In this document: positions 40,465-55,633 of the stretch, piece by piece
Layout: the number at the start of each line of letters is the position of its first letter
Position numbering within the stretch: position 1 is the stretch's first letter
Translations under genes and position numbers: made by a program
The notes under the pieces: generated by a model
Told to the model about the DNA's origin: nothing
The model's input: only the letters and a program-made list of their open reading frames with translations
Database searches by the model: none
Assembly: GCA_905233425.1 (NCBI GenBank)
Contig: CAJOEC010000011.1
Coordinates: forward strand, 1-64,000
DNA: 64,000 nucleotides
Origin: an uncultured Prevotella sp.
GTDB taxonomy: Bacteria; Bacteroidota; Bacteroidia; Bacteroidales; Bacteroidaceae
Direction: 5' to 3'

Positions 40465-41661
40465 ATGATTGAACTACAACGACATATTGAGATCCTTCTT
40501 CTGACCAACGACTGTGTCATCGTCCCCGACCTCGGTGGCTTCATGGCCCACTATGTCGAGGCACGCTACGACGAGACCGACAACACTTTCGTCCCGCCAC
40601 TTCGCACCATAGGGTTCAACCAGAGCCTCACCATGAACGACTCGCTGCTGGTGCAGTCGTACATAGAGTGTTACGACATAAGCTATCCCGAGGCGTTGAG
40701 GCGCATTGAGGACGAGGTGGCCGAACTGCGCCAGCATCTGCAGGCCGAGGGGGAGTATGAGCTTAACGACATAGGGGTGCTCAGACTCAACGCCGAGGGG
40801 AAGCTGGAGTTCAGGCCATGCGAGGCAGGAATACTCACCCCCGGACTCTACGGTCTGGGCACATTCCAGATGATGCCGCTTGCCGCAGCACAGGAATCTG
40901 CGGTGGAAGAAGACGTTGTGCCTCTATTGGCAGAAGAGAAACAGCCCGTAGCGGCAGACATTGAACAACCGACCGATAGCAGTCAGGAAGTGGACGACAA
41001 TGAGGAGGAGCACGCCATAGTGATAAAGATGTCGTGGCTGCGCAATGCCGCCGCAGTAGCAGCTGCCGTAGTGGCGTTCTTCATGATAGGGACACCAGTG
41101 TCGAACAGCGACCTCGAAAACGGGCAGCAGATACAGCAAAGCACATTCATACCTATTGCCACGCAAGGCACCACAGTAGGGACGCGACGTGTCGCGTCCG
41201 AGCTTGATGCCGGTGGCTCCACAGTAGGGACGCAACCTGTTGCGTCCGAAATGGACGCCAGTGGCTCCACAGTAGGGACGCGACGTGTCGCGTCCGAAAT
41301 GGACGCCAGTGGCTCCACAGTAGGGACGCGACGTGTCGCGTCCGAAATGGACGCCACTACCAGCCCTGCGGAAGATAGCCCGGCACAGGACATCGCACCT
41401 GCAACCATCCAACCGCAGACCACAGCCGACGAATACTGCATAGTGCTTGCCAGTCAGGTGAGCCAGAAAAACGCCGACGGGTTTGTTGAGCAGCTGAACA
41501 AGCAGGGGTTCAACGAGGCATACATACAGAACAAGCGTTTCCGTCGTGTTCTCTATGGCCATTATGCCACACAGGACGAGGCCTCGGAAAAACTGCGCGA
41601 ACTGCGTAAGCAGAGCAGGAAGAACTTTGGCGAGGCATGGGTCATGAAGAGCGAGAAATGA
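40465..41661 (+). CDS. SPOR-domain membrane protein with N-terminal HU/CCDC81-like domains
   Basis: N-term IELQRHIEILLLTNDCVIVPDLGGFMAHYVEARYD; TM helix; C-term YCIVLASQVSQKNADGFVEQLNKQGFNEAYIQ...YGHYATQDEASEKLRELRKQ is SPOR-like. Confidence 0.8.
   Translation: MIELQRHIEILLLTNDCVIVPDLGGFMAHYVEARYDETDNTFVPPLRTIGFNQSLTMNDSLLVQSYIECYDISYPEALRRIEDEVAELRQHLQAEGEYELNDIGVLRLNAEGKLEFRPCEAGILTPGLYGLGTFQMMPLAAAQESAVEEDVVPLLAEEKQPVAADIEQPTDSSQEVDDNEEEHAIVIKMSWLRNAAAVAAAVVAFFMIGTPVSNSDLENGQQIQQSTFIPIATQGTTVGTRRVASELDAGGSTVGTQPVASEMDASGSTVGTRRVASEMDASGSTVGTRRVASEMDATTSPAEDSPAQDIAPATIQPQTTADEYCIVLASQVSQKNADGFVEQLNKQGFNEAYIQNKRFRRVLYGHYATQDEASEKLRELRKQSRKNFGEAWVMKSEK
41171..41356 (+). repeat. Four tandem 48-bp units each containing a palindrome (GGACGCGAC-GT-GTCGCGTCC)
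   Basis: Units start at 41171, 41219, 41267, 41315; encode (T/S)TVGT(RR/QP)VASE(L/M)DA(G/S)GS. Confidence 0.95.
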
Positions 41662-42661: not shown

Positions 42662-43471
42662 TTATTCGTCCACGTAGTCTGACAGGCCTTCTGCCTCTTC
42701 GTCGGGGTCGGTCGTTCCGAGATCCATCATTGTGGAGTAGTTCTCCTCGGTTATCTCGTCGTCGTTGGGGCCGTCAATCTCGATGTCGTCTTCGTCGGGC
42801 TTGTTGAAGGTGTCCTCAATCTCAACGTCTTCGTCTTCATTTTCCTCGTCGTTGTACGTGTTGAACTTCATTCTTGGCTTCTCTGCCTCGGGTTTCGCTT
42901 TGGCGAAGATGGCCTCCACCCATGTGCCTTTCGGAACTTCGAGCACCTCGAAACCGTCGGCGACTTTCTTCTCGTACATGCCGCCTTTCTTGTGGAGTCT
43001 CTCCTTGGGCAGCGTCGTCGTTGAGATGTCAAAACCGTTCTCAATGATGTCCTTGATGCTCTGCGAGAGCGAGTCCCATCCACCGCCGAAGTTGCGGTCG
43101 AGCACCTCGATGAGCTTGGCGGCCGTGATGTGGCGTATGTTCTCGTATGTGAGGTCGGTGACACGTGTTATTGGACGCTTCTTTATTGCCCAGGTGGACT
43201 TCAGGCCGTCGTCGAGGCGTACCATTCCCACCTTGTAGCCCATCTTCTCATATTTCATTCTTGCGAGCTGTGACTCCCGCGAGACATCTTCGACCATAAA
43301 CGCCGAGCGGATGATGTCGGCATAGTGGCGCACGTTGTCCTTCAGCTCAGCATCCTTCTCAGCGCTTTCCAGCAGACGGAAGATGTCGTTTTCCTGAACA
43401 TCCCAAACTGAACTCTTCGTGAGATTCTTGAGCGATAGCACTTTCTTTTCTGTTTGTTCCATGTTTTCCAT
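42662..43471 (-). CDS. Conserved hypothetical protein with highly acidic C-terminus
   Basis: 270-codon ORF with its own promoter-like site; no recognised family. Confidence 0.7.
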   Translation of the reverse strand: MENMEQTEKKVLSLKNLTKSSVWDVQENDIFRLLESAEKDAELKDNVRHYADIIRSAFMVEDVSRESQLARMKYEKMGYKVGMVRLDDGLKSTWAIKKRPITRVTDLTYENIRHITAAKLIEVLDRNFGGGWDSLSQSIKDIIENGFDISTTTLPKERLHKKGGMYEKKVADGFEVLEVPKGTWVEAIFAKAKPEAEKPRMKFNTYNDEENEDEDVEIEDTFNKPDEDDIEIDGPNDDEITEENYSTMMDLGTTDPDEEAEGLSDYVDE

Positions 43472-43652: not shown

Positions 43653-45563
43653 TCAAGTGTTCTCTTTTGGTATTTCCACGATGAACCGGCAACCCTGATG
43701 GTAGCTGTCGTCGTAGACGAGGCTGCCGCCGAGGGCCTTGACGTGGGTCTTGCAGAGGGGCAGACCGAGTCCGAGACCTTCGGCCAGGTCGTCGCCCTTG
43801 GTGAAAGGCTCGAAAATGAGTTCTTCGGCATTCTTCGGCAGTCCGGGGCCTATGTCCTCTACTATGAAGAGGACGGCGGTGTCGGTTTGGGAGACCTTTA
43901 GCGTGATGTGCTTTCCGTCGGAGAACTTGGCTGCGTTGTAGAGCAGTTCGCGGACGGTACGCATGAGGAAGAGTTGATTGGTGCGTATTTTGAAGTCGTC
44001 GGGCAGCTGGGTGGTGAATTGTATTGGCGAGATGTAGAATAGTTTCTCCGTGTAATCTATGCACTCCTTTGCAAACTGGTTGCATAGCACGTCTTCGCGC
44101 TGTTTGTAGCGTGAGGAGTCGGCCAGACCGACGTCGCTGCTGTCGTAGAGCATCAGTGTGTTGCGCTGCAGCAGCAGGGAGTTATGCTTTAGCGTGGTGG
44201 TGAGCTGGCTTATCTCAGCTTTTTTCCTGCTATTGATGTTGTTTCTCAGCACGGCGGTCAATGCTTCTATGGCGTTGAGCGGCGTGAGTATCTGTCGCGA
44301 CACGTTTTTAATGAATGTCTGTCTGCGCCGCGATGCTTCCTGTGCGCGTGTCAGTATGCGCTCTATCTCTGCGCTCTTGCTTTCGAGTTCTGCGTCGGTT
44401 TGTTTGGTTTCTTCGAGGTGGGCAATGATGGCCTGCTGCATCTTTCGGAATGCGTTCTGCAGTTTTCCCACGACGTCGTTGTGGTCGCTCAGTGGTATGA
44501 GTGTCTGGTAGTCGCCTTCGGCAATCTTCTTTGTGGCCTCCATCAGCTCATTGAGGTGTCCTATGCTGTGCTGTACGCCCCTGCGGATTATCCACACGAT
44601 GAGGAGGAGTCCGACGACGATGAAGACGATGAGTACGATGGTGAGGTGGTTGTAGTCGGCCAGCACGTCGTCGTCGTCGCAGACGAGTGCGATGCTCCAG
44701 CCGGTATCGGACACGGGCATGTAGGTGACATGGCAGAGACGGTCGTCGATGGTGACGTGGGTGGTGCCTTGCTTTCCGGTGGTCATGGCTCGTCCCAGCT
44801 CTATTATGTCGGGATGCTCCACGGAGTCGGTGGCGGTGAATATGGTTTTCTTGAAGAGCAGGCTGCTATTAGGATGGACGAGATAGCCCCCCGAGGGACC
44901 GAGAATCATGTAGTAGGAGCTTGGATAGGGGTGGTGGGTGGCGAGCACGGTCTCGCGCAGTCTCTGGAACGAGAAGTCTACGGTGACTATGCCCTCTATG
45001 CGATTGCTTTGTGGCCGCAGTGGCATGCAGTAGGAGCCTACGGCATCGTGGTGGTTGATGGTGCCCTCGTTGAAATCGCTGAAGGGATTGATCCAGCAGG
45101 GCCGTCCCATCTGCATGGGCTTCTTGTACCAGTTCTTTTCATAATACTCGAACTCTGGCTCAAGTACGGTGATGACCGTGTCTATGTCGCGGACGGAATA
45201 GACGGAGAAATTGTCGCCGTAGTCAGGGAACGAGTTAGGCTCTGCGGCTACGGAACAGCTGAGCACGCTGGGGTTCAGGCTGACGATGCGTTGTGCTATG
45301 GTCTTGAGCGAGTCGGGTGTGAAGTTTTCTTCCATCGCCCATACATTGGCCTTGGCAGCGGTCTCTATGGCGTTGATATGGTTGTCGACGAGTCGCTCTG
45401 TGGTGCGCAGAATTGTGCGGGACCGCTCTGCTGTCTCCCGTTCCAGCAGTTCGCGTGCATACTGATAGAACACGCCCAGCGACAGCACGAATAGTGGTAC
45501 TGCCAGTATGAGGATGGTTCTGCTGAGGCGTTTTGAAAAAGTGCGGCGTACTTCTTTACTCAT
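43653..45563 (-). CDS. dCache-HAMP sensor histidine kinase-like protein; HATPase appears intact, phospho-acceptor His replaced
   Basis: dCache-like ectodomain; HAMP; FIKNVSRQILTPLNAI (SH->SR); RELLYNAAKFS, VEDIGPGLP, GLGLGLPLCK. Confidence 0.85.
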   Translation of the reverse strand: MSKEVRRTFSKRLSRTILILAVPLFVLSLGVFYQYARELLERETAERSRTILRTTERLVDNHINAIETAAKANVWAMEENFTPDSLKTIAQRIVSLNPSVLSCSVAAEPNSFPDYGDNFSVYSVRDIDTVITVLEPEFEYYEKNWYKKPMQMGRPCWINPFSDFNEGTINHHDAVGSYCMPLRPQSNRIEGIVTVDFSFQRLRETVLATHHPYPSSYYMILGPSGGYLVHPNSSLLFKKTIFTATDSVEHPDIIELGRAMTTGKQGTTHVTIDDRLCHVTYMPVSDTGWSIALVCDDDDVLADYNHLTIVLIVFIVVGLLLIVWIIRRGVQHSIGHLNELMEATKKIAEGDYQTLIPLSDHNDVVGKLQNAFRKMQQAIIAHLEETKQTDAELESKSAEIERILTRAQEASRRRQTFIKNVSRQILTPLNAIEALTAVLRNNINSRKKAEISQLTTTLKHNSLLLQRNTLMLYDSSDVGLADSSRYKQREDVLCNQFAKECIDYTEKLFYISPIQFTTQLPDDFKIRTNQLFLMRTVRELLYNAAKFSDGKHITLKVSQTDTAVLFIVEDIGPGLPKNAEELIFEPFTKGDDLAEGLGLGLPLCKTHVKALGGSLVYDDSYHQGCRFIVEIPKENT

Positions 45564-45567
45564 GGTG

Positions 45568-47037
45568 TTATTCTTTTCCTTCGAATTTGTGGCTGAGCAG
45601 TTCGAGGATGGTCTCGCTCTGCTGCTTGATGTTGTCTATCTCGCGGTTGGCTTCCTCCGGCGTGATGTCGTCGTAGTGGTCGCACAGCCTTGTCACGCTG
45701 TCGCCCACGGCCTTTGCCGGGCCTATCATGCGGTTGGTCACGTTGTGGAGCAGAGTTCTTTTCACCTCGTCGGCGGCCTCTATCTCCTTGAGTTTCTTTT
45801 CCAGCTCTTCATGTCGCTCTCTGAGCGTCTCCCTCTGTGCATCCTGCTTGGCAATGTCGGCGGCCAGCGCTTTCTGCATCAAAGCGAAGTGCTGCTGGAA
45901 TGTGCCCACCTCGTCGTCTCTCTTAGTCTTAGGTATTGTCTCGTCGTAGTGTCCTTCACCTATCCTTTCAGCACTCTCTGTCAGATAGGCCAAGGGCTTC
46001 ATCTGTCCCCTTATAGCCTTCCTACAGAGTATGTAGAAGACGAGCAGCGCTATGCCCACGATGCCCATGACATGAAAGACGAGATGGTTGTATTCGCCGA
46101 AGATGTCCTCTTTCGGATAGATGGTTGCGATGCTCCAGTTCATTCCTGCCATCTTCCTTCCCCTGACCGAATTGCGGACGAAGGGCTTGTAGAACAGATA
46201 CCAGCGGAAGTCGTTCATCAGGAACGACATGTTTCCCTCTTCGCCCTTCAGCATGGCCTTGGCTGCCTCCATTGCCGACGGGCTTGCCGCCACCTCGGGC
46301 TGGTCGAACACCTTCTGTCCGGCCAGCAACTCGTGGTTGGGGTGGATGATGTAGCTGCCGTCTTTCGCCAGCAATATGCTGTAGCTGTTGGGCGACGGCT
46401 TAGCCTCGAGCACTATCTGCGACAGCAGGCTGATGGACAGCCCTACGCCAATGACACCAACACACTCTCCGATCTTGTCCCTGATGGGCAGGCTGAAAGC
46501 GATGATGGGCTCGGCACGGTAGGCACGGTTATGCTCTGGCGGAATCCATGCAGGACTCTCTGTTGCCATCGTCTCGCTATACCATGTCTGCTGCATGTAG
46601 GGAATGTTGTCACTTTCCCTCGACACGATAAGTTCGGGCGAATTATACTTCTTGCGGTGCACGTAGGTCATCCACGGCTTGCCCTCCTCATAGTAGCCGG
46701 GCTCCATTGCTATGGCGCAGCCCACGATATCCTCGTTACACTCTACCAGTTTACGGCAATAGTGGGCCAGGGTATCCGGCTCGTCGAGATGCTCCAGTAG
46801 CCTGTAGTAGAAGTTGCCCGTCGTCTGCTCTATCGTCAGCAGGATGTTGTCCACATGCTGTACTGTGGTCTCCAGTCGCTCCTCAGCGTCATTCTTCTGC
46901 TCCTCGACCAGCGCTTTGCGCGTGAAGAAGAACAGCACGCCCAGCGACACGCCCAGCAGCATCACCACCTCAATGACCACCAGCGCATTCAGATGAATGG
47001 CCGGTGTCGAGAAAATGCGTTTCACTATCTTTTGCAT
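45568..47037 (-). CDS. dCache-HAMP sensor protein ending in a degenerate DHp-like helix, no HATPase
   Basis: Start refined from 47580 to MQKIVKRIF; HAMP; C-term LLHNVTNRMIGPAKAVGDSV...ILELLSHKFEGKE. Confidence 0.8.
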   Translation of the reverse strand: MQKIVKRIFSTPAIHLNALVVIEVVMLLGVSLGVLFFFTRKALVEEQKNDAEERLETTVQHVDNILLTIEQTTGNFYYRLLEHLDEPDTLAHYCRKLVECNEDIVGCAIAMEPGYYEEGKPWMTYVHRKKYNSPELIVSRESDNIPYMQQTWYSETMATESPAWIPPEHNRAYRAEPIIAFSLPIRDKIGECVGVIGVGLSISLLSQIVLEAKPSPNSYSILLAKDGSYIIHPNHELLAGQKVFDQPEVAASPSAMEAAKAMLKGEEGNMSFLMNDFRWYLFYKPFVRNSVRGRKMAGMNWSIATIYPKEDIFGEYNHLVFHVMGIVGIALLVFYILCRKAIRGQMKPLAYLTESAERIGEGHYDETIPKTKRDDEVGTFQQHFALMQKALAADIAKQDAQRETLRERHEELEKKLKEIEAADEVKRTLLHNVTNRMIGPAKAVGDSVTRLCDHYDDITPEEANREIDNIKQQSETILELLSHKFEGKE

Positions 47038-48023
47038 ACAATCCACACGGTTAATACGCCAACCACCACCAGTACTAAAAGTACAATGGCTATCGGCAAT
47101 ATGTGTTTGACAATATCTTTTTGGGGCACTATAACAGCCACCGACCAGTCGATGTATTCTATGGGTCCGTAATAGACAGTACATTCTTCGCCGTCTATTT
47201 CCATGTTGGTCACCACACCGCTCTTCCCGTGCTTCAGGTCTTTCAGCAGCCCCTCGTCCTTCAGCGTCAGCTCCTTCTCGTCGGGATGGGCTATGCATTC
47301 TCCGTCGTTGTTGAGTATCACCGTGTAGAAGTTCAGGTCGGTGAGCACGAGATACTTGTTGAGCACCTTGTTGCTCTTGCTGCTCTCGTCGACCCACTTC
47401 AGTTCCTTGGCCAGCCACTCGAACTTCATGTCGGCACCGCAGACGCAGGCCAGGTCGCCCTTGCTGTCGAACAGAGGTTTCACAAACGTGCTGTAGTGCC
47501 CGCTCAAGCTCGTCCCGTCGTAATAGTAGTAGGGTTCGCTCCAGAAGCTCGCGCTGCTCTCCTTCGCCTTCACGTACCATGGCGACTTGGTGTAGTTATG
47601 ACGGGCGGAACCCACCTGCCTGTAGTCGAATCCGCCGTACTCAGGTTGAAAGATGTAGGGTTCGAACCACGTGCCCTTTTCGGGGTAATAGTCGGGCACG
47701 AAGGCGGCGAAATATCCCCTCACGTCGAGGTTCAGGTTGGCCTTGCTCTTTAGCGCGGCCACCACCCCTTCCGGGTCGTTCAGGTTACGGCTCACCTCGT
47801 CGAAAATGTTGTTGGCGTTCATCTCGGCCCCGCGAATTATTTTCGCCACCTTCTCGGCCGACACGTTCTTCACGCCCATATACCTGGCATGGGCACCAGC
47901 CAGAGCAACCTGGTAGCAAGCATAGAGTGACGCGGCGGCCATGACTGTCAGTACCACCAGTACGGTGAGAACCACCGGGCGGCGTTTTGTTCTCGATTCA
48001 GTATTCTTTGTGTTTTCTTCCAT
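47025..48023 (-). CDS. Membrane-anchored dCache sensor-only protein
   Basis: TM, dCache-like ectodomain (FDYRQVGSARHNYTKSPWYVKAKES, LFDSKGDLACVCGADMKFEWL), TM, then stop. Confidence 0.8.
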   Translation of the reverse strand: MEENTKNTESRTKRRPVVLTVLVVLTVMAAASLYACYQVALAGAHARYMGVKNVSAEKVAKIIRGAEMNANNIFDEVSRNLNDPEGVVAALKSKANLNLDVRGYFAAFVPDYYPEKGTWFEPYIFQPEYGGFDYRQVGSARHNYTKSPWYVKAKESSASFWSEPYYYYDGTSLSGHYSTFVKPLFDSKGDLACVCGADMKFEWLAKELKWVDESSKSNKVLNKYLVLTDLNFYTVILNNDGECIAHPDEKELTLKDEGLLKDLKHGKSGVVTNMEIDGEECTVYYGPIEYIDWSVAVIVPQKDIVKHILPIAIVLLVLVVVGVLTVWIVCKR

Positions 48024-48031
48024 TGTCAGTT

Positions 48032-49252
48032 TTATTTAATCATTATTTTTTCAGACAGGTTAAATTGCATTTTCTGAATGGAGTTGCGAAGATCGGCAAG
48101 CTCATCGTTGTGAGAGGTCTCAGGCAGCGGCGTGTCGTACTTCCCTTGCGCTATGTCGTCGGTAACGTGGACGAGCTGCTTTATCGGCTCCGTCGCGTTC
48201 CTAATATAATAATATGTGACAAGGACAATCAGCAGGATGGCCAGGAGGATGATGACCAGTACGGTTACGGCATTGAGATAGCTCAGTATGTCGATAGCGC
48301 GGCACGGCACCACCGTCACCAATATCCATTGAGTGTATTTCACGGGCGTGTAGAACACGTAGCATTCCTCGCCATTGACAAGGAAGCGTTCCAGGCTTTT
48401 TTGCACAGACTCGTCGGCATCAGCAACCTTAATCCTGTTTATCAGCTGCTCCGCGTCGCTACTGCCAGCCCCCTCTAACTGTGTGAAGAAATTGTCCTTG
48501 ATAATCTTGTTTTCGTCAGAGTTCGTCATGAAAGTGCCGTCGTGGTTGATGATAAAGCTCTGCGACTTCATTTCAAACAAACTGGCCATCATCATGGTGT
48601 TTTTGTTGATGGTGGAGTCGGTCTCGCTGAGTTTGTTTGTCAGCCAGTCTAACGACATGTCGGCCCCCATTACGGCCACCACCTTTCCCGCCAAGTCGTG
48701 AATGGGCACCATATAGGCCGACAATGCTGTGTTTTCGTCGTATGTGTCATAGAAAGGGTCGCTCCACCTCGCTGAGTCGCTTTCCACCACGTCTTTGAAC
48801 CAGTCGGCCTGCAGATAGTCCAGGTCAGCATCGCCCAAGTCTTGCGAATTGACCACATTGGGATTGGCCGCGTTCCGCCACGCGAAAGGACAGAAGTGGT
48901 GTTGTTTCTCCGGGTAGTAGTAGTCTTCAATGAAACTGATGCCGCAACTGCGCACACGCGTGCCGCTCTTCACAATGCGCTCCATAATCTGCTTATAGCC
49001 GTCGGGCTTGTCGAGCGAGTGCTCCAGATAGTAGATGTTGTTCGTAGCGGCGACATAAACGTCGGAAATGACTCGGCGGGTGTACTCTTTTGTGATGAGC
49101 ATCTTGTTATAATAGATTTCGGAATAGAACTGGCGTGTGGCCTCTGTCTCGAAATGAAGTATAACATACGAAAGCCCAAGGACGACAAACAACGTCCAGA
49201 TCAGAATTCTTTTCGTCAGTCTGCGAGCCAGTGTTTTTGTTTTCTTTTCCAT
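48032..49252 (-). CDS. dCache-HAMP protein lacking a kinase core
   Basis: dCache-like ectodomain (VVAVMGADMSLDWLTNKL), TM, HAMP-like NATEPIKQLVHVTDDIAQGKYDTPLP, ends in short coiled coil. Confidence 0.8.
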   Translation of the reverse strand: MEKKTKTLARRLTKRILIWTLFVVLGLSYVILHFETEATRQFYSEIYYNKMLITKEYTRRVISDVYVAATNNIYYLEHSLDKPDGYKQIMERIVKSGTRVRSCGISFIEDYYYPEKQHHFCPFAWRNAANPNVVNSQDLGDADLDYLQADWFKDVVESDSARWSDPFYDTYDENTALSAYMVPIHDLAGKVVAVMGADMSLDWLTNKLSETDSTINKNTMMMASLFEMKSQSFIINHDGTFMTNSDENKIIKDNFFTQLEGAGSSDAEQLINRIKVADADESVQKSLERFLVNGEECYVFYTPVKYTQWILVTVVPCRAIDILSYLNAVTVLVIILLAILLIVLVTYYYIRNATEPIKQLVHVTDDIAQGKYDTPLPETSHNDELADLRNSIQKMQFNLSEKIMIK

Positions 49253-49404
49253 CGGTTTTCAGATATTAACTTAGTGATGATAAAAAAACTTGGTAGGATT
49301 TTGTGTGCTCGACCACGCCCCGAAGGGGGCAATGAGCTATCAGCCCAGGGCAGCGCCCTGGGTAGTCATGAGTGCACAGCCCCCGCCCTGTAGGGGCAAA
49401 AGAA

Positions 49405-49544
49405 TGAGTAGGAGGCGTCGCCTCCGTCCAAGGCTTTTGCCCTTTCAGGGCGATGATAACCCTGTCTTCATACCCAGGGCGATGCCCTGGGCTATTAGCT
49501 TTCTGGCCTTTCAGGCCGACTATCGGATACATACGGATAATCAT
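49405..49544. repeat. About 135-nt multi-hairpin intergenic repeat, copy 2, with partial inverted modules at 49310-49404
   Basis: GAGTAGGAGGCGTCGCCTCCGTCCAAGGCTTTTGCCCTTTCAGGGCGATGATAACCC...CCCAGGGCGATGCCCTGGG...GGCCTTTCAGGCC. Confidence 0.9.
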
Positions 49545-49583
49545 TTTTAGTTTTACTGATTCGGGTATATGCGGAAGAATCGT

Positions 49584-51197
49584 TTAATCATTTACCTCCT
49601 TTGCACCTTTCGGAATCTCAAATATGAACTTGGCACCGTCGGCGTATTCGTAATCGCGCCATATCCGGCCATGCAGCAGGCGGCTGATGCTCTGGCAGAT
49701 GTTGAGGCTCATACTGGTATAACGGGCGGCTTTGTCCTCGCCAGCTTTTTTGTCGTTTGTGCTGTCGCCAGACTTCATGCTCGTGTCTGTTATCGTGAAG
49801 AGGACAGCATCTCGTGTCTCTTCGCACAATAGCCTGACAAAGCCTTTCGTAGTGTAGCGGGCAGAATCGTTGAGAATCTTTGTGAGCAGTTTCCTCAACG
49901 CATCGGAGTTGGTCATTATCTCGAAATCGTCGGGCAGCTTGGTTTGGAAAATGGCGGTGACATCGCGGTTGCATTGGTTCTGAGTGACGTTTGCCAGATG
50001 GTCGCCAAGTTTGTTCACCTTAACAGGCGTGTCGAGCGGCAACTCAGTCTTACTCTCGTAGAACGACAGCTCGTTAAGGTCTTCGAGGGCTCTTTCAGCA
50101 TCCTTTTTACTGTAGTTAAGCATTCGGTTGTCGTGCTTCAACACACGTACAATCTTGTGTCGTTGATAGATTAAGAACAGCAGCACCAGTATCAGGACAA
50201 TGCCCAACGCGAAATAGAAGCGATAGCGCAGCTGGCTGTTCTGGTGGGTCAGCAGCTCCTGCTCCAGTCGCAGACGGTCGTTGTTCATGCGCAGATAAAT
50301 GCTGGCCACATCGTTTTCGTGCGATGCACGTGCAATGGAGTCGGAGATACGCTTGTATTCCACCATATACTCGTATGCCTTCTCGTTGTCGCCCAGACGG
50401 TGGTAAATGAGGGCCTTCCGCTCGGCACAGCTGTCGGCAGAAAGACGGTCTACCAGCATGAGAGCCTGCTTGTAGTCGGCATTGATGATGTAATAGTTAA
50501 GCTCTGTATACAGGTTTATCGACTTGATGCCGTCGGTCTGCGAAAGCCTTTTCATCTCCTCATAAACATGGTTGAATTCCTCCACATTCCCCTCGTTGAA
50601 GGCCACGATACTCAGGCGGTACAATGTCCTGCCCTTATGATGTGGCGTCACGTTTGGCTCGGCCAACAACTGGTATCCGTATTTCTTTGCCATCTCTACG
50701 TCACCACGCATATAGGCAATCTTCATCAGCTCGCGCAAGTCCTCGGCGGCACTCTCGTTGGGGAAATGGCGGCGGCGGAAGTCGGAAGCCTCGAGAAAAG
50801 CTTTCTGGGCAGCATCGTAGTCCTGTTGCTGCATAAGAATCATCGCATTGGTATGCAGGGCAGCATACTCGCCATAGATGCTGCCATCTTGTCGGGCATA
50901 GTCTATCATTTCCTTGGCAATGTCAAGGGCCTCTTTATAATACTGGTGAGTGGCCTCGTAGATACCCTGATTGCCCCATGCCCTATAGAAAAAACGTTCT
51001 TCGCCAGCCTCCTTACTGGCCTCTTTCAGCTTTTTAGCGACACGGGTGAATGATTCTCTATCATTGGTGTCCATATACCTAAGCATCTCTGCCTCGAGGC
51101 TAATGAGTTCATCGTTTGCGGCGGCACGCAAATTTGCCGCGCAAAACATGCAGAACAGTAGCGCAAATAGCTTCAAGTATTTCTTTAAATGCAACAT
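49584..51197 (-). CDS. TPR-TM protein with degenerate HATPase-like C-terminus
   Basis: Start refined from 51239 because the promoter overlaps the longer ORF; TPR helices; TM FYFALGIVLILVLLFLIYQRHK; LRKLLTKILNDSARYT N-box-like, G1/G2 boxes lost. Confidence 0.75.
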   Translation of the reverse strand: MLHLKKYLKLFALLFCMFCAANLRAAANDELISLEAEMLRYMDTNDRESFTRVAKKLKEASKEAGEERFFYRAWGNQGIYEATHQYYKEALDIAKEMIDYARQDGSIYGEYAALHTNAMILMQQQDYDAAQKAFLEASDFRRRHFPNESAAEDLRELMKIAYMRGDVEMAKKYGYQLLAEPNVTPHHKGRTLYRLSIVAFNEGNVEEFNHVYEEMKRLSQTDGIKSINLYTELNYYIINADYKQALMLVDRLSADSCAERKALIYHRLGDNEKAYEYMVEYKRISDSIARASHENDVASIYLRMNNDRLRLEQELLTHQNSQLRYRFYFALGIVLILVLLFLIYQRHKIVRVLKHDNRMLNYSKKDAERALEDLNELSFYESKTELPLDTPVKVNKLGDHLANVTQNQCNRDVTAIFQTKLPDDFEIMTNSDALRKLLTKILNDSARYTTKGFVRLLCEETRDAVLFTITDTSMKSGDSTNDKKAGEDKAARYTSMSLNICQSISRLLHGRIWRDYEYADGAKFIFEIPKGAKEVND

Positions 51198-51226: not shown

Positions 51227-51258
51227 CAAAATTATACAATTATTCCGAAAGCACCAAA
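51227..51258 (-). promoter_or_regulatory. Bacteroidetes-type promoter for the sensor cluster (-7 TAATTTTG, -33 TTTG)
   Basis: CAAAATTA 51227-51234 and CAAA 51255-51258 on plus strand, 20-nt gap. Confidence 0.75.
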
Positions 51259-51577: not shown

Positions 51578-52606
51578 ATGGCTGTTGATAACACCATAAA
51601 GTGGTTTGTCATGACGCATTATGAGATGAAACGTTTCATGGAGTGGCTCAAAACCGAGAATGCCCAGCGTCTGAGTAAAGGAGAGACTATTATAGAGCCT
51701 TTCTGTCCCCGTGATTTCCTGAAGGAAACGGAAGGCGCGGTGTCAGACGATTTTGCCAACATTGTGTTCCTCAAGACCACCGAGAGTGACATCAGCAATC
51801 TGGTGAACAACCAGAAGAATATTATGCCGAGGCTTCGCTTGAGGCACTATTTGGACACTAACGGCACCAAGGCCACCGTTTCTGACTCAACAATGCAGGC
51901 ATTTTTGCAGGCCTGTATCAAATATCGCGGACACTTCGAGATCATTCCTCCTGTCAGTAGTATCGAGGTCACGGATAAGGTGAAGATAATTAGCGGTCCG
52001 TTTGCCGGACATGAAGCATCTGTAGAAAGGGTACAATTGTCGCGTGGCGCAATACAACTCGATTTGGCGATTGAATTGGTTTCTGGCGTGATGAACATCC
52101 GTATGTGCGATGTTGACAAGAACAAAGTGATGATTCTCAGTCGTGACTCGGCCGATGCCATCCGTACCGACTTCATCGAGTACACACAGAACCACCTTCT
52201 CGACATCTTGAAACACCGCGTCAATCGCGAGCAGGATGCCGACGTGAACCGGCGCGATGCCGACATGCTGACCCGCCTGTACCGTTATTGTAACCACGAG
52301 GTGAAGAACGAGGCTGCCCGTAACCATTTCCTGGCTCTCATGCTCATCTGTGCCCATCTGTGCCGTTATACGGCCGACGAAGGACAGCTGCGGGAAAAAG
52401 CGTTGGGCGTGCTTTCATGTATCAATCAGCGGAGCGAGTCGAAGGCTGCCACCGACACAAGGGCATATCTCTGGATAGCGCTCTACGTCTCAACCCAGAA
52501 CCCCGTCTACCGCGATGCCGCAAAGAAATATGTGCGCGACTACCAGCCCAAGTCCGAAAAGCTACGCAGCTTCGTGTCACTCATACGTAAAGGGCGCAAA
52601 GTTTAA
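51578..52606 (+). CDS. NusG-like specialised antiterminator (UpxY-type) with long C-terminal extension
   Basis: NGN-like IKWFVMTHYEMKRFMEWLK; KOW-like VTDKVKIISGPFAGHEASVERV; first gene of capsule locus. Confidence 0.75.
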   Translation: MAVDNTIKWFVMTHYEMKRFMEWLKTENAQRLSKGETIIEPFCPRDFLKETEGAVSDDFANIVFLKTTESDISNLVNNQKNIMPRLRLRHYLDTNGTKATVSDSTMQAFLQACIKYRGHFEIIPPVSSIEVTDKVKIISGPFAGHEASVERVQLSRGAIQLDLAIELVSGVMNIRMCDVDKNKVMILSRDSADAIRTDFIEYTQNHLLDILKHRVNREQDADVNRRDADMLTRLYRYCNHEVKNEAARNHFLALMLICAHLCRYTADEGQLREKALGVLSCINQRSESKAATDTRAYLWIALYVSTQNPVYRDAAKKYVRDYQPKSEKLRSFVSLIRKGRKV

Positions 52607-52630
52607 CCTTTTTTGTTGAAAAGAGGTAAG

Positions 52631-53455
52631 ATGGAAAAATACATCTATTACATTTTATTTTTCGTCGTAGGTTGGTTAAGTAGCTGTTCCACTCCAAACA
52701 ATGTGGCCTATTTTCAAAATGCCGATGCCATACGTGGAATGACACTACAGAAAGAACAACCCTTCAGGTTGAGACCAAAAGATAAAATCAATATTGTGGT
52801 AAGCAGTACCGACCCAATGTTGGTAAACCAGTTCAACCTTACCTCTGTTTCCCATAACATGAATGCATTAGGTACCACTTTGGCACCACAAACATCGGTT
52901 GGCGGCAGTACAAGTGGAGCCTCTATTTTGGCATACACCGTTGATGAGCAGGGTGACATCAATTTCCCTGTTTTAGGAAGGGTCGCTGTGGGGGGTAAGA
53001 CACGCCAGGAAGTTGCCGCTTATTTAAGAGCCAGACTAATTGAGCGTGAATTGGTTCTTGACCCCATCGTGACAGTCGAATATGTCAATTTGGCGGTTAA
53101 TGTCCTTGGCGAGGTGAATCATCCCGGACGCATCAATGTACAAAAAGACTTTTTTACTATTCTTGATGCCATTGCCGCAGCTGGTGACTTGACCATCACA
53201 GGCCAGCGCGAGAACATCATGGTTATGCGTGAGGTAGATGGTGAAGATTTTACATACATTATCAATTTATGCGACCGTCAGGATATGCTCCTATCACCGG
53301 CTTATTATTTGCAGCAGAATGATGTTGTCTATGTGACGCCTAATTCTAAAAGACAACGAGAATCAAAATCTATAGGCAATACTTTCAACCAACCTTCTTT
53401 TTGGCTTTCGCTGGCCTCGTTTCTCACCACACTGGGAGCGCTGTTAATAAAATAA
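52631..53455 (+). CDS. Polysaccharide export lipoprotein (Wza-like)
   Basis: Lipobox LSSCSTP; FRLRPKDKINIVVSS; VTVEYVNLAVNVLGEVNHPGRINV (SLBB). Confidence 0.9.
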   Translation: MEKYIYYILFFVVGWLSSCSTPNNVAYFQNADAIRGMTLQKEQPFRLRPKDKINIVVSSTDPMLVNQFNLTSVSHNMNALGTTLAPQTSVGGSTSGASILAYTVDEQGDINFPVLGRVAVGGKTRQEVAAYLRARLIERELVLDPIVTVEYVNLAVNVLGEVNHPGRINVQKDFFTILDAIAAAGDLTITGQRENIMVMREVDGEDFTYIINLCDRQDMLLSPAYYLQQNDVVYVTPNSKRQRESKSIGNTFNQPSFWLSLASFLTTLGALLIK

Positions 53456-53461
53456 TCGGAA

Positions 53462-55633
53462 ATGGATAAACGTTCAGATAGTTTTGTCTCGATAGCCGAC
53501 TTATGGCGCATGTGCATTACGCGCTGGCGTTGGTTCGTGGCTTCTGTCTTTATTTGTCTGTTGTTTGCTGTCAGATACCTTATAGTCACACCGTTTCTGT
53601 ATACACGTACGGCCTCTATAATGCTTCATGAGGAGAATTTAGGAGAAAACGTTACAGATAAGAATAGTAAAGACTTTAATCAAATAGGTTTTGTAAAACA
53701 GAAGATCAATGTTCCTGATGTGGTACGTCACATAACTTCTCTTGAGACACTCTTGGAAGTCGTGAACCGTTTATATCCATCTATAGATGAAACGGAAAAG
53801 TTCGATATGGCCGTTGACATCCAGTCTCGTTTGTCGGCAGAGGTTGAGGAAAAAGGATCTTCCATCATTGACATGACCTATCGTGACTATTCAACAAAAG
53901 AGGCATCCAAAACACTTGAGTTGATTATTCAGGTGTATAATGAAAAATGGCTGCAGGAGAAACAGACCGTAATTCAAAACACCTCACATTTTATAGATTC
54001 ACGACTAAAATTACTCGAACGCGAACTGAGCATAGTAGATGATAGCATCTCGTCTTTCAAGAGTCGTTTCGGCATTACTGACCTTCAGCGTGTAAGCGAT
54101 GTTTATCTTCAACAGCAAAGCCGTCTGGATGCCGACATATTGAGGTTGGCAAACGAAAAAGCAATGGCCGAATATATTCGTAGTCTGCTGGAAGACAAAT
54201 CATCACCCAACCAACTGCTTTTAGTCAATTCCGGTATAAACAATGGTTTGATTGAGTCTCAGATTACGTCATATAACAGTCTGTTGATACAGATGCAAAG
54301 CCATTTGGATTACACATCTGGACAGAACCCACTGATGATTAATCTTGAGAAGGAGCTAAACAGTCTGAGGAAGAATATACTTGCGAATGTAATAAATCAT
54401 ATTCGCACCATTGACATTCAACTAAAATCCATGCATGACTATCATAGCGAAACAGCTTCAAAGATTTCTTCCAACCCCTCTCAAGCTAAGCATCTTATTT
54501 CTATTGAGCGCGAGCAAAAGGTAAAGGAAAGTCTCTATATGTATTTGCTTCAGAAGAAGGAAGAGAACGAAATAAGTCTGACGTATAAAACTGCTCCCTC
54601 ACAGATTATTGACTTTCCTAACGGTAGTGGCAAGCCGACTTCGCCAAACAGGATTGTTGTACTATTGGGAGCTGTCCTATTGGGCGTATTGATGCCATTA
54701 ACCTATTTCTTCCTTCGCGCCTCATTTGATGAAAGCGTGCGTGACCGCCATGATATAGAGATCAACAGCGACATCCCATTCATTGGCGAAGTTCCTTATT
54801 CAGGCCGTGAGCACAGCTTAGACAGTCTGTTGATGCGATTTGGAATAGGTCGCAAAGCCAAATCTGGTGGCATCGTTGTAGGTCCAGATTTGCTCAATGC
54901 CTCTAATGAGGCGTTCCGTGTTTTGCGAAATAATATGGATTCTATTGTGGCTATCAAGTCACCTGATAATAGTGGCAGGGTCTATCTCCTTAAATCTACA
55001 GAGATTGAGGTCGGTAAGACCTTTATAGGTATGAATCTGGCATTGATTCATGCTATTGGCGGACAGCGTGTTCTTTTCATCGACGGTGACTTGCGTCAGG
55101 CCTCTGCCTCACGACTATGGCGAACGCCGTTGTTTGGCTTAACCGACTATCTTAGTGGCGAAGAAAGTGACTTTCGCAAGCTGCTGTGGCATCCAGAAGA
55201 CTTTCCCACGATGGATGTTCTGCCGGCTGGTGCCCTGCCTACTAATCCAACAGAGCTGTTACAAAGTCCGTTGCTCAAAGAGCTTCTCGATACTGTGAAA
55301 CAGCAATATGACAGTATCTTTATCGACAGCCCGTCTGCCGGAATTTTGGCCGATGCCGACATTATGGAGCGTATTGTTGATTGTTCGTTACTTATCATTC
55401 GGGCTGGTCGCGTCAACCGCCACCGATTAAACGATTTCAGTCCTATTCAGATTATTAACGGCACAAGCAAACCTCAATATTTTATCCTGAACGGCGTAAA
55501 CGTTCATGTACGTTATGGTTATGCGTATTCGCACAAGTACAAACGTACTGAAGAAGAAAAAAACACAGTGGAAATAAGTAAAAAGACCATCTTACTGAAT
55601 AAGATTATATTTAGAAAGAAACAAGAGACTTAA
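53462..55633 (+). CDS. Wzc-like chain-length determinant / BY-type tyrosine kinase-like protein
   Basis: Wzz-like N-term; [12 protein letters not shown] Walker A'; [17 protein letters not shown]-term Tyr cluster YGYAYSHKY. Confidence 0.85.

Follow-up and report, generated by a model that had tools for sequence, protein, structure and literature searches.

A five-gene array of membrane sensors and pseudo-histidine kinases beside a capsule operon in a rumen Prevotella

Five neighbouring genes for membrane sensors, here called A to E, occupy the minus strand between positions 43653 and 51197 of a 64,000-nucleotide stretch of DNA (the window) from a rumen Prevotella (Table 1). A first, sequence-only reading of the window had described them as an array of split or degenerate histidine-kinase modules. 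Its coordinates and strand for all five genes agree with the list of ORFs, as does the spacing that it reported (8 nt between B and C, a 13-nt overlap of C with D and 4 nt between D and E); A and B are separated by 331 nt. Searches against Pfam and NCBIfam, with a profile-profile comparison for the DHp of D, returned the five domain architectures that had been proposed. The absence of a response regulator, noted earlier for the window, extends to the whole of its 198-kb contig, on which a Response_reg search found none, with 15 response regulators encoded elsewhere in the same genome. The array is thus without the linked response regulator that is expected of an orthodox HisKA kinase; orphan kinases exist, and a missing linked regulator is a weak test of orthodox-kinase status. 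The gene downstream of the array, at 42662-43471 (269 aa), matched no family above the cut-off in Pfam, NCBIfam or PHROGs, and searches of the open-licence literature found neither this array nor D-E pairs described.

Table 1. Genes and other features of the sensor array and of the start of the divergent capsule operon
Feature	Position	Strand	Description
Gene A	49584..51197	-	537 aa; TPR repeats behind a signal-like N-terminus, then a TM (about 322-353), a long helix and a degenerate HATPase_c
Gene B	48032..49252	-	406 aa; TM-dCache-TM-HAMP, without output domain (Pfam)
Gene C	47025..48023	-	332 aa; TM-dCache-TM, neither HAMP nor output domain (Pfam)
Gene D	45568..47037	-	489 aa; predicted half-kinase (dCache-HAMP-DHp) with Asn435 at the His position and without HATPase
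Gene E	43653..45563	-	636 aa; predicted pseudokinase (dCache-HAMP-DHp-HATPase) with Arg423 at the His position; intact N, G1, F and G2 boxes
Promoter of Bacteroidetes type (TTTG-N20-TAnnTTTG)	51227..51258	-	TTTG-N20-TAATTTTG in the window; heads A
Divergent NusG-like gene	51578..52606	+	UpxY-like NGN and KOW plus helical C-terminal domain of about 140 aa; first gene of the capsule operon
Wza-like polysaccharide export and Wzc-like chain-length/kinase genes	52613..55633	+	Poly_export in Pfam (Wza-like); sequence and synteny (Wzc-like)

The product of gene E matches dCache, HAMP, HisKA (weakly, at 18.3 bits) and HATPase_c (strongly, at 71.8 bits) in Pfam. Its acceptor site, within SRQILTPLN, is occupied by Arg423, and its ATP-binding motifs are kept (NAAKFSDG, DIGPGLP, FEPF and GLGLGLPL); Arg423, N543, D570/G572/G574, F587 and G596/G598/G600 are invariant in six E orthologues. 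The sequence-only reading had allowed that a canonical acceptor His might be found elsewhere in these proteins. None was found: E carries Arg423 and D carries Asn435 at the H-box position of the DHp, and A has no DHp. Only E has the N, G1, F and G2 boxes in the intact form expected of an orthodox kinase, those of A being degenerate and D having none. Since no subunit carries an acceptor His, ordinary autophosphorylation is excluded on sequence grounds; an unusual acceptor might be used.

In a tree of 75 E proteins the six of Arg type form one clade with a support of 100, so that the simplest history would be a single loss of the His, in the common ancestor of the arrays sampled; the sister of this clade (placement support 80) consists of His-type clusters in which a C gene is also present. 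The catalytic-neighbour positions +3 and +4 from the acceptor, nearly always Arg and Thr in the remaining E proteins, vary within the Arg-type clade, and the Pro-Leu-Asn at +5 to +7, which we regard as structural, stays. That E acts as a phosphatase by way of an E/DxxT/N motif is not supported, because the +4 Thr is replaced by Ser, Ala or Met in some orthologues.

For D, Pfam recognises dCache and HAMP and neither HisKA nor HATPase. Profile-profile alignment with hhalign places the C-terminus of D on the DHp of E with 99.1% probability (E-value 8e-19); as a control, the same C-terminus against the CA domain of E gave a probability of 0.3% and no alignment. The acceptor position is Asn435, within TNRMIGPA. 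His431, one helical turn earlier, was considered as a relocated acceptor; it occurs in 53 of 76 D genes but is not essential, because Arg stands there in one array (L103).

Adjacent D and E genes were found in 76 pairs. The acceptor residue of E is His in 67 of these, Arg in 6 and Gln in 2, and the one remaining pair is ambiguous (L082, in which E is split and the fragment has Thr); in 75 pairs D is without an acceptor His, mostly with Asn or Asp in its place, and in 1 it has His. The stop of D and the start of E overlap or nearly touch (median junction -4 nt, with 71 of the 76 between -40 and +30). D matches, which include homologous E proteins, occur in 72 of 120 genomes of the genus. Among 294 other genomes of the order, with only three others of the family sampled, there was no match to D through the DHp in a D-sized frame, and the half-kinase therefore looks confined to the genus. 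D is a conserved predicted 'half-kinase' with its own gene family genus-wide, and the array is, as judged from these comparisons, a pseudokinase offshoot of a widespread D-E pair, translationally coupled by prediction, that normally keeps its His on E. One member of this widespread pair consistently has neither the His nor the ATPase domain.

The genome from which the window comes has two further D-E clusters, C51 and C87, the E proteins of which have a canonical H-box and are 43-46% identical to the E of the array. The D gene of C87 carries a TAG, and at L082 two ORFs stand in place of a single E, so that some copies of the pair do decay. At one locus (L096, 5456-8712, minus strand) the His is on D and a Gln on E, as though the acceptor had passed to the partner protein; this single case is too few for a general swap of the His between D and E, which we rejected. 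Another split arrangement was seen on contig C8 of the window's own genome (L020, 7646-9942), where a dCache-HAMP-DHp protein with a canonical His and no HATPase adjoins a His-less TM-HAMP-DHp protein.

The product of gene A has TPRs and an HATPase_c match in Pfam of 24.4 bits, just under the cut-off, or of 28.3 bits, over the cut-off, in a six-frame search. By motif alignment its DHp is deleted and its N, G1 and G2 boxes are lost. Its C-terminal domain is predicted by AF2 (pLDDT 82 for the model) to have the fold of a kinase CA domain with a poorly ordered ATP-lid region. The best Foldseek match is HK853 (2c2a, E-value 5.5e-9), the kinase region of RetS is matched as well, and the CA domain of A compares with the isolated CA domain of VanS at a TM score of 0.76 by target length. 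Orthologues of A share 46-69% identity, and in longer relatives with a retained DHp the acceptor position is taken by Lys, Asn or Gln, never His.

The relatives of genes B and C are of another kind. B matches dCache_1 (55.6) and HAMP (36.5) in Pfam and is 56-68% identical to its orthologues within arrays; outside arrays it is nearest to the sensor halves of proteins of dCache-HAMP-PP2C type. One close B-like protein (51%) is encoded divergently from a TPR-PP2C gene. C matches PDC/dCache without HAMP, and its array orthologues are 54-75% identical. The C family comprises stand-alone dCache proteins, and relatives at 45-49% identity lie directly upstream of TPR-TM-PP2C genes at about 11 loci, usually with a junction of -4 nt (a 4-nt overlap). 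The best description of C is therefore a movable sensor subunit, one that could serve TPR receptors, of which A is also one. Both B and C resemble the sensor subunits of PP2C/TPR receptor systems and do not look like fragments of a kinase. Given these relationships, the earlier label of 'split kinase' holds for A, D and E and has to be withdrawn for B and C. The motif Arg of dCache_1AA amino-acid sensors was not apparent when the array was inspected by eye. An output by partner switching was considered and set aside, SpoIIE phosphatases being present in the genome and none in the array; at another locus (L089) a PP2C-type gene lies near an A relative and is followed by a short ORF that appears STAS-like by eye.

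The sequence-only reading had regarded a lack of synteny in related genomes as a sign of decaying pseudogenes. When named genomes were searched with an alignment of A, 63 loci were found, almost all from Prevotellaceae and mostly in ruminant metagenome assemblies. The order A-B-C-D-E recurs with the divergent NusG-like gene in three other Prevotella genomes (L101, L102, which is the same locus as L081, and L111). The promoter-like site that had been noted ahead of the cluster recurs in the same form just upstream of A in all three, with a spacer one base shorter in L111. Wza/Wzc-like genes follow NusG in L101 and L111, the contig of L102 ends at NusG, and two extra ORFs lie between NusG and A in L101. 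Two further arrays are rearranged: C-D-E-A-B in L103 (the same locus as L083), and A followed by C-D-E in L106. The frames are open at 64-75% identity across four species, and pairwise dN/dS is 0.08-0.20 for A to E (NusG control 0.08-0.16), values that are rough because synonymous sites are near saturation, two D comparisons being saturated. Conserved synteny, purifying selection and a conserved change of His to Arg with intact ATP boxes support the earlier proposal of a functional sensor array incompetent for phosphotransfer. Few independent evolutionary events are represented in these comparisons. Similarity to A was used to retrieve three of the six Arg-type loci, so that the association of A with E there is partly a product of how the loci were selected; among loci fetched by D alone, together with the window, A is present at 3 of 3 Arg-type loci and at 0 of 11 others with wide flanks (12 pairs were counted in the Fisher test). 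The spacer between A and B (49253-49583) is rich in repeats (for example CCCAGGGCATCGCCCTGGG) and is found in the window only; translated sequence similar to it occurs at L019, 15083-15535.

To our knowledge, descriptions of pseudo-histidine kinases are limited to a few single examples, as against which a whole predicted operon of pseudokinase parts is retained here across species. The 7TM/DISMED sensor and the receiver domains of RetS are missing from the array, as is a linked target like GacS. The control of GacS by RetS is exerted through hetero-oligomerisation (as cited in PMC9491836), and the kinase region of this kinase-like receptor acting by protein contact (PDB 6dk7) is matched by both E and A. 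Among solved structures E also matches ordinary kinases and DivL of Caulobacter (PDB 4q20, E-value 1.9e-7), in which Tyr replaces the His and which functions without kinase activity (PMC4211667). E shares with DivL a DHp-CA module in which the fold is retained, the CA motifs are intact and a non-His acceptor residue is conserved (Arg423 in 6 of 6 E orthologues). DivL itself, however, is a single protein of PAS type that senses DivK~P and works with CckA, whereas E belongs to a five-gene array, has dCache-HAMP as its input and a half-kinase as its partner, carries Arg where the His would be and has its nearest kin among the Prevotella D-E kinases. For D there is a parallel in the ChrS pseudokinase of C. 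glutamicum, which has no working CA domain and still signals by way of a DHp that it needs (PMC9491836); the ChrS variant is a laboratory-evolved frameshift, whereas D belongs to a conserved, genus-wide family with its own replacement at the acceptor site.

The five genes probably form a working, non-phosphorylating sensor complex and are not broken genes. We give roughly an even chance (about 0.5) to the reading in which the array is a selected, heteromeric pseudokinase receptor, derived from the D-E pair and acting allosterically by contact in the manner of DivL and RetS, possibly on capsule expression. The ancestral state would have been a D-E receptor pair of half-kinase and kinase, common in the genus; in one lineage the acceptor His of E would have been changed to Arg, with the DHp fold and ATP site retained, and the pair would have been joined with A, the TPR pseudokinase, and with B and C as stand-alone sensors. 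D and E, the genes of which overlap or abut, would most likely pair through their HAMP/DHp helices (their adjacency could also mean co-expression only), and B and C would contribute periplasmic ligand sensing. Changes of shape that depend on ligand and ATP might be relayed by protein contact to another kinase or, alternatively, through A to the NusG-like regulator of the capsule operon; candidate partners would be the His-type paralogues of C51 and C87, other kinases, or NusG by way of A. The subunit contacts, allosteric output, partitioned ligands and capsule target are parts of this scheme that we infer, and the retained ATP site of E favours a pseudokinase that would bind ATP, respond to ligand and signal by contact.

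The ATPase domain of E might instead phosphorylate in trans, either on the His of a paralogue from C51 or C87 in a mixed dimer or on a non-His target, and so feed into two-component signalling. This is an unlikely but tenable alternative, for the ATP boxes of E are invariant, two His-bearing paralogues of E are encoded in the same genome, response regulators are unlinked but present there, and the His on D and Gln on E at L096 are as expected if the ATPase of E serves a His of D. L096, however, is a single case, the D of the array is also without an acceptor His, and pseudokinases may keep ATP sites for structural or allosteric reasons. The presence of His-type and Arg-type pairs in the same genome offers a natural comparison for the function of a sensor kinase without phosphate transfer.

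The possible bearing of the array on the capsule involves its divergent neighbour. The product of this gene has a NusG fold (AF2/Foldseek) and scores 43 bits against the UpxY family of NCBIfam (NF033644), for which the cut-off is 100. Its extra C-terminal domain of seven helices (residues 197-337, mostly at pLDDT 70-92) had no separate match in a whole-chain search of the PDB. Specialised NusG paralogues act on adjacent capsule operons, and the window protein resembles the UpxY/NusG-type regulators of Bacteroides in being a NusG paralogue encoded by the first gene of a capsule operon (PMC7819879). It differs from UpxY in its score below the cut-off and in its extra helical domain, and the literature consulted describes no sensor array with UpxY.

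Close relatives of the NusG-like protein (57-80%) occur in 6 of 120 genomes, in five of which A adjoins; in the sixth (G034) the NusG-like gene leads Wza/Wzc without A, and full-length A without a close NusG-like gene was found in 0 of the 120. Co-occurrence of A and NusG in these genomes has a Fisher p of 3e-8, uncorrected for shared ancestry. A-type genes adjoin the NusG-like regulator in eight A loci, in three of which they lie inside the capsule operon. With A and NusG-like capsule operons linked in several genomes, the earlier suggestion of the capsule as a target has gained real though indirect support, and the capsule is a reasonable candidate target. The array does not strictly go with the capsule, since no NusG adjoins A in L103 and L106 and some A-bearing capsule operons are without B to E. 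The locus might therefore be two separate units, A serving the capsule operon with the NusG-like protein and B-C-D-E being an independent receptor with an unrelated output. We hold such a division to be improbable. It would fit the operons in which A sits between NusG and Wza without B to E (L104, L107 and L114), the place of A beside NusG in L105, the co-occurrence of A and NusG and the long A-B gap of the window. Against it, A is present in all six Arg-type E loci, the permuted one included (with the three that were fetched by A), A and B lie within about 25 nt of each other or overlap in L101, L102 and L111 on a longest-ORF reading, and C-family genes are coupled to TPR receptors elsewhere.

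The array set allows one to ask whether receptors of this type reach capsule control by way of a NusG paralogue. In a bolder and quite doubtful version of the contact-signalling reading, the phosphotransfer-dead kinase parts and detached sensors would use an ATP-driven change of shape to control elongation of capsule transcription, through direct contact between A in the membrane and the NusG-like protein; if true, this would be a route from sensor to elongation factor without a phosphorelay. That the array genes are decaying relics of sensor kinases, as might be thought from the catalytic parts missing from every gene and the split copies in L082 and C87, can be rejected as highly improbable on account of the conserved gene order and open frames in four species, the low dN/dS and the invariance of Arg423 together with intact ATP boxes.

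Elsewhere in the window a palindrome (GGACGCGACRYGTCGCGTCC), which has 145 copies in the genome as compared with 0 for a reversed control, forms in-frame repeats of 48 nt (VGTRRVASEMDASGST) at 41180-41343, within the protein encoded by the ORF at 40465-41661 (plus strand). It may be a palindromic repeat of the coding-tolerant sort seen in Rickettsia. Its peptide is also found in frame in the kinase of cluster C87 (L018, 10261-12276).
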